Positions 27,558 through 36,990 of a stretch of 64,000 nt of DNA are shown piece after piece (the stretch's first letter is position 1; every line of letters starts with the position of its first letter). Below the pieces are notes generated by a model. The model ran no database searches, was not told the DNA's origin, and saw nothing but the letters and a program-made list of their open reading frames with translations. A program made the translations under genes and the position numbers. The DNA comes from an uncultured Tateyamaria sp. Lineage in GTDB: Bacteria > Pseudomonadota > Alphaproteobacteria > Rhodobacterales > Rhodobacteraceae. The stretch lies in contig CAJQRC010000024.1 in NCBI GenBank assembly GCA_905480645.1, forward strand, positions 1 through 64,000, in the 5' to 3' direction.

Positions 27558-27699
27558 CAATCTCAATTTAAACTTTTCAAAGTTGTTTTAAATCAACTAG
27601 TTCCTTTGCCGGAAATTTTGATTGATATCTCATGTCTATGATTTCTGGTATGTAATCTTGTAAATGTGAATTTTCTTATTAGAACCGTAATAACAACGA

Positions 27700-27804
27700 G
27701 AGACCTCAAAATAACTCCTTTTTTATAAATATTCATAATTTTAATCAATAAAAACAATAGTAAATTTTCCAAAAATCACCAAAAGGGCGTTAGCCTGAGG
27801 TCTC
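27700..27804. repeat. Dispersed 105-bp MITE-like element, copy 1
   Basis: The element begins GAGACCTCA and ends TGAGGTCTC, perfect 9-bp inverted ends. Its AT-rich interior includes AATTTTCCAAAAAT-ACC, which also occurs in copy 2 at 36736-36841. It lies between the anmK end and the cupin end and carries no ORF. No convincing target-site duplication is seen. It could be a non-autonomous transposon relic or a conserved structured element. Confidence 0.75.
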
Positions 27805-27838
27805 AATGAATAATTAGGTCTTCATATTTCAAAAAAGA

Positions 27839-36388: not shown

Positions 36389-36990
36389 CGCTCCATATTT
36401 AATCTGTCTTGTTGAGTTTATGAGTTATTTAATATTTCAGTTTATTTGTAATTAGATTTAATTCTGAAAATGGTGTGAAAAAGCTGTCGCATCCATGCTA
36501 TTTTAATCTTAAAAAACGCAAAATAAATTTGCAGAGTTAAGAAAAATCATATGATTGCAATGAAGTGAGTAAGCTTGGCTGGTTAAATACAAATTATTTA
36601 CCCTAACTATTCAACTTTTAGTATTTAGATATCTTAAATATTTTATTGGAGGGAACATGGTTTATGACTGAGATATCTTAATTTGTCTCCTTCAAGTTCT
36701 CACCTACTAAATTTAAATGCTTAAAATTTGTGTAAGAGACCTCAGCACAATTCTTTTTTAAAAATATCCATAATAATTACTTAATAAAACCAATGGTGAA
36801 TTTTCCAAAAATTACCAAAAAGGGTGTTATGTTGATGTCTCTGTAAAGCTATTTCTTTTCGTATTAGGCAGATTGCTATAACCTAGCCTTATGAAAATTA
36901 AAAACCAACCCAACGCACAGAGTTATTAATCTGTATTTTGACCTACAATAAAAACGTCAAAGATTTTGCGACTATAATAGATTAAATGAC
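36389..36990. other. 602-bp gap containing repeat copy 2
   Basis: AT-rich spacer upstream of the GNAT gene. Apart from the repeat at 36736-36841 it shows no coding frame. The bases directly before the repeat are equally AT-rich. Confidence 0.5.
36736..36841. repeat. Dispersed 105-bp MITE-like element, copy 2
   Basis: This copy begins GAGACCTCA and ends TGATGTCTC, one mismatch from perfect inverted ends. The interior matches copy 1 (27700-27804) over most of its length, with the strongest block at AATTTTCCAAAAAT-ACCAAAA. Differences are mostly single bases, so the copies are old or under some constraint. Confidence 0.75.

Follow-up and report, generated by a model that had tools for sequence, protein, structure and literature searches.

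Two intergenic segments of the window, which is the whole 64,000-nucleotide stretch of DNA from an uncultured Tateyamaria sp. analysed here, are very probably (about 0.93) copies of a nonautonomous MITE that an IS5-family transposase would have moved in trans, whose partner would then have been lost, and whose copies are now decaying. A MITE was one of the forms proposed earlier for these segments from the sequence alone, and several findings bear it out: the repeat is dispersed in 12 copies, it has terminal inverted repeats of 17 bp and target duplications of 3 bp, and its ends recur in an IS5-family element. The family is new, small, and decaying; its kind is well known and ordinary, and no concept is changed by its finding.

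A dispersed family of short intergenic elements

The sequence-only reading had placed two similar segments at 27700-27804 and 36736-36841. Both were found there, with better bounds at 27699-27805 and 36735-36842, and they are homologous: in a search of their own genome they were 81% identical end to end (E = 2e-19). Copy 1 (27699-27805, + strand, 107 bp) lies between anmK and a cupin (DUF985) gene. Its left terminal inverted repeat (27699-27715, + strand, AGAGACCTCAAAATAAC) has 2 mismatches to the family consensus, and its right repeat (27789-27805, - strand, reading GTTAGCCTGAGGTCTCA on the + strand) has 3; the flanking triplets, ACG and ATG, are a degraded duplication. Copy 2 (36735-36842, + strand, 108 bp) has as neighbours a GNAT-like acetyltransferase gene and a nucleoside hydrolase-like gene, both named by reading of their ORFs. 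It runs from AGAGACCTCAGCACAAT (36735-36751, + strand) to a right repeat on the - strand (36826-36842, GTTATGTTGATGTCTCT on the + strand) and is enclosed by an exact 3-bp duplication, GTA, at 36732-36734 and 36843-36845. The frame GAGACCTCA...TGAGGTCTC described for both segments is exact at 27700, but the right arm of the segment at 36736 reads TGATGTCTC. The inverted ends are present as described but extend to about 17 bp (AGAGACCTCAGCATAAC), not 9. An AT-rich interior without an ORF was seen in both segments.

A lack of further copies in the genome, with an alignment of the two segments no better than shuffled AT-rich sequence, had been named as grounds for refuting the earlier reading, and this refutation failed. 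A whole-genome search found 10 further copies elsewhere, giving at least 12 in the 3.07-Mb assembly (67 contigs), on 10 contigs, with pairwise identities of 68 to 83%. All 12 are intergenic, and no ORF of at least 80 amino acids overlaps a copy at any of the 12 loci. The copies are 105 to 108 bp long (about 107 bp), with an AT-rich interior, and from all 12 we derived the 17-bp terminal inverted repeat consensus AGAGACCTCAGCATAAC...GTTATGCTGAGGTCTCT.

Target duplications were also looked for, as had been proposed. Exact 3-bp flanking direct repeats were found in 7/12 copies (TAA, CTA, TAA, TCA, GTA, CTA, and ATA), a number that shuffled pairing of the flanks reached in about 3 of 10,000 trials (P about 3e-4). 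Exact repeats of 2 bp flanked 0/12 copies and those of 4 bp flanked one. At the mean divergence of 13.5%, some 5 of the 12 duplications should still be intact (0.865 raised to the power of 6), and the observed 7 therefore fit duplications that were once universal. Additionally, a T precedes the left triplet in 10/12 copies and an A follows the right triplet in 11/12, a T-NNN-A pattern that suggests a weak target preference. The element is thus short and noncoding, has terminal inverted repeats and a target duplication, is present in dispersed copies, and has ends in common with an autonomous transposon, all of which are criteria for bacterial MITEs.

Outside this genome, the family was absent from the 19 same-genus genomes searched. 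A scan of a 397-genome family sample, which scored two candidates per genome and so had lower sensitivity to weak copies, detected none in the 396 genomes other than this one. Exact-pattern searches gave no match to the element in GTDB genome contigs and none to its ends in viral contigs. The exact 17-mer end was likewise found in none of 395 genomes of the order; this excludes perfect ends only, because none of the copies in its own genome carries the exact consensus 17-mer. Single-end matches elsewhere in the genome were mostly due to chance, apart from a relic insertion sequence end at C33:25010. The MITE probably spread to its intergenic sites, at least 12 in number, after this lineage had split from those of the congeners sampled.

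Copy 1 lies in the anmK-cupin gap (27558-27838), which is 281 bp here and -14 to 0 bp in several relatives, including two that are named Tateyamaria. These short gaps agree with an insertion of copy 1 here, as far as gene spacing may tell, and the gap varies widely among relatives, reaching 852 bp in T. pelophila. The MITE itself accounts for only some 110 bp of the additional length. The relatives' DNA is about 65 to 70% identical, too diverged for base-by-base empty sites.

Ends in common with IS5-family elements

To judge from sequence comparison, the MITE ends are tied to an IS5-family transposase. The statement that no named family has these ends held within the searches made, but the ends do match those of an IS5-family insertion sequence. 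A tblastn search reached the Marinomonas algicola plasmid NZ_CP061942.1, where a 1197-bp element (144101-145297) is annotated with the IS5 family transposase WP_191603771.1. Its left end equals the MITE consensus at 19/19 positions and its right end does so at 19/20, and it is flanked by AAT on both sides, a 3-bp duplication of the same length as that of the MITE. It differs from the MITE in its size, its open transposase frame, its dissimilar interior, and its gammaproteobacterial host. Beyond the terminal repeats, similarity between the MITE interior and this insertion sequence was not significant (p = 0.18 and 0.33). A derivation of the MITE by internal deletion of the Marinomonas element is thus unsupported. 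Elsewhere in the phylum, most of the more distant IS5 relatives have other ends, and the copies in one genome have GAGACCTCTGCA-like ends. The MITE ends link a roseobacter genome to IS5-family ends on a gammaproteobacterial plasmid.

Within its own genome, the sole match to DDE_Tnp_1 (PF01609) lies at a contig end, in an IS5-type transposase (NCBIfam transpos_IS5_4, DUF772) that is broken by stops. The broken element occupies C21:1-920 and C39:13570-13694, with fragments at C33:11552-11726 and C33:25010. Its left end, which begins AGAGACTTCAG at two sites, reads AGAGACTTCAGAAAATTTC and is found, with different flanks, where contigs C21 and C39 end. The related relic end at C33:25010 reads AGAGACCTCAGCGAAAC. 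These own-genome ends (AGAGACTTCAG and AGAGACCTCAGCGAAAC) match the MITE end at 13 to 15 of 17 positions. The element has at least 2 copies, with the transposase broken in the readable one (C21); both C21 and C39 break off within it, and no right end for it turned up in the assembly. PF13340, another IS5-type transposase domain considered as a partner, is absent from the genome.

With ends that are similar, not identical, and a DDE_Tnp_1 transposase with stops, the broken element is a candidate for the MITE's partner. The mobilizer was likely an IS5-family transposase acting in trans. This genome yielded no partner transposase that is intact, and mobilization in trans is therefore something that we can only infer; the loss of the partner and the present immobility of the MITE have the same standing. 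We envisage that an IS5-family transposase would have recognised the 17- to 19-bp MITE ends in trans and that insertion at short AT-rich sites (T-NNN-A) would have duplicated the middle 3 bases. The MITE would have reached its intergenic sites, probably after the split noted above, and the matching transposase would then have been lost or broken, leaving the remaining copies immobile and decaying neutrally.

Decay of the copies and tests for a retained role

The copies diverge from the consensus by 10 to 19% (mean, 13.5%), and their commonest changes are C to T and G to A. Decay is roughly uniform along the element, with columns agreeing on average in 10.4 of 12 copies (left end), 10.5 (interior), and 9.8 (right end).

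The earlier suggestion of a small RNA or binding-site cassette did not hold up, with no Rfam match, uncoupled arms, and roughly uniform decay. In its broader form, this explanation takes the segments for a dispersed cassette that is either a conserved structured RNA or an element regulating at the RNA level. The consensus does fold into a long hairpin (-38.7 kcal/mol, z = -9.6), but inverted ends necessarily fold, and any MITE with long inverted ends gives such a hairpin. In the real copies, stem stability is much reduced, and the reverse strand of copy 2 has a z of only -1.0. When covariation in the ends was tested, as the sequence-only reading had proposed, 79.3% of arm cells paired in the real alignment versus 79.1% in shuffled ones, and the covariation score equaled that of the shuffled alignments. 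This independent variation of the arms speaks against an RNA with a conserved structure and in favour of elements that are old, immobile, and decaying neutrally. Moreover, RNAalifold predicted zero consensus pairs on the copy alignment, and an Rfam scan of the window at the gathering threshold found only a tRNA and no match to the MITE. An RNA might also be favoured by the location of 9/12 copies within 150 bp downstream of a stop codon, but they lie there in either orientation, with no constant orientation relative to the neighbouring gene. We consider a structured RNA extremely unlikely. Four copies lie no more than 18 bp downstream of a stop codon.

The same location just after stop codons could instead mean that, among the decaying MITE copies, some have been co-opted, for instance as 3'-untranslated-region elements or protein-binding sites. 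Invariant columns numbered 31, a slight excess over the 22 that base-specific neutral decay would leave (p = 0.03), and there is an invariant 6-base run, ATTTTC (p = 0.009). However, the invariant-column test ignores shared ancestry among the copies, which would give the same excess and is the simpler reason for it. The ends and interior are also nearly equal in mean conservation, and MITEs are commonly intergenic. Co-option is thus very unlikely, and there is only a slight chance that some copies are kept for a host role, such as a transcript-end element after stop codons with the invariant run as a putative binding site. As a decaying MITE family, the copies are probably functionless now.

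Comparison with known elements and the host genome

Among known elements, the 107-bp RUP of Streptococcus pneumoniae, which is attributed to IS630-Spn1 (PMC2229807), resembles the Tateyamaria MITE in size, intergenic location, terminal inverted repeats in common with an insertion sequence, and lack of an ORF. It differs in its IS630 partner, its TA target, and its well-conserved copies, about 108 in number versus 12 decayed ones. The Correia/NEMIS elements of Neisseria, which measure about 107 and 155 bp and have a reported IHF site (PMC2229807), are likewise similar in size, terminal inverted repeats, target duplication, and AT richness but have TA at the termini and a different host. MITEPye1 of Paracoccus yeei (PMC11578231) is, by its description, also alphaproteobacterial, low in copy number, and intergenic, with inverted repeats in common with an insertion sequence, but its partner is of the IS1182 family and not the IS5 family. 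In the library searched, no paper dealt with elements of this sort in Tateyamaria and none with IS5-linked MITEs in roseobacters.

With this finding, one low-copy MITE family is on record for a marine roseobacter whose genome is small and AT-rich compared with others of its genus, and the copies can be used as marks of insertion times and assembly breakpoints. The AnmK protein of the window is closest to that of Tateyamaria pelophila (72%), followed by those of other Tateyamaria and Roseobacteraceae, so that the genome probably belongs to Tateyamaria or close to that genus. The genome measures 3.07 Mb versus 4.1 to 5.6 Mb in the other same-genus genomes compared, and GC within the window is 38.5 to 43%. 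The host thus has the look of a reduced representative, shifted towards AT, of a genus whose genomes are larger.
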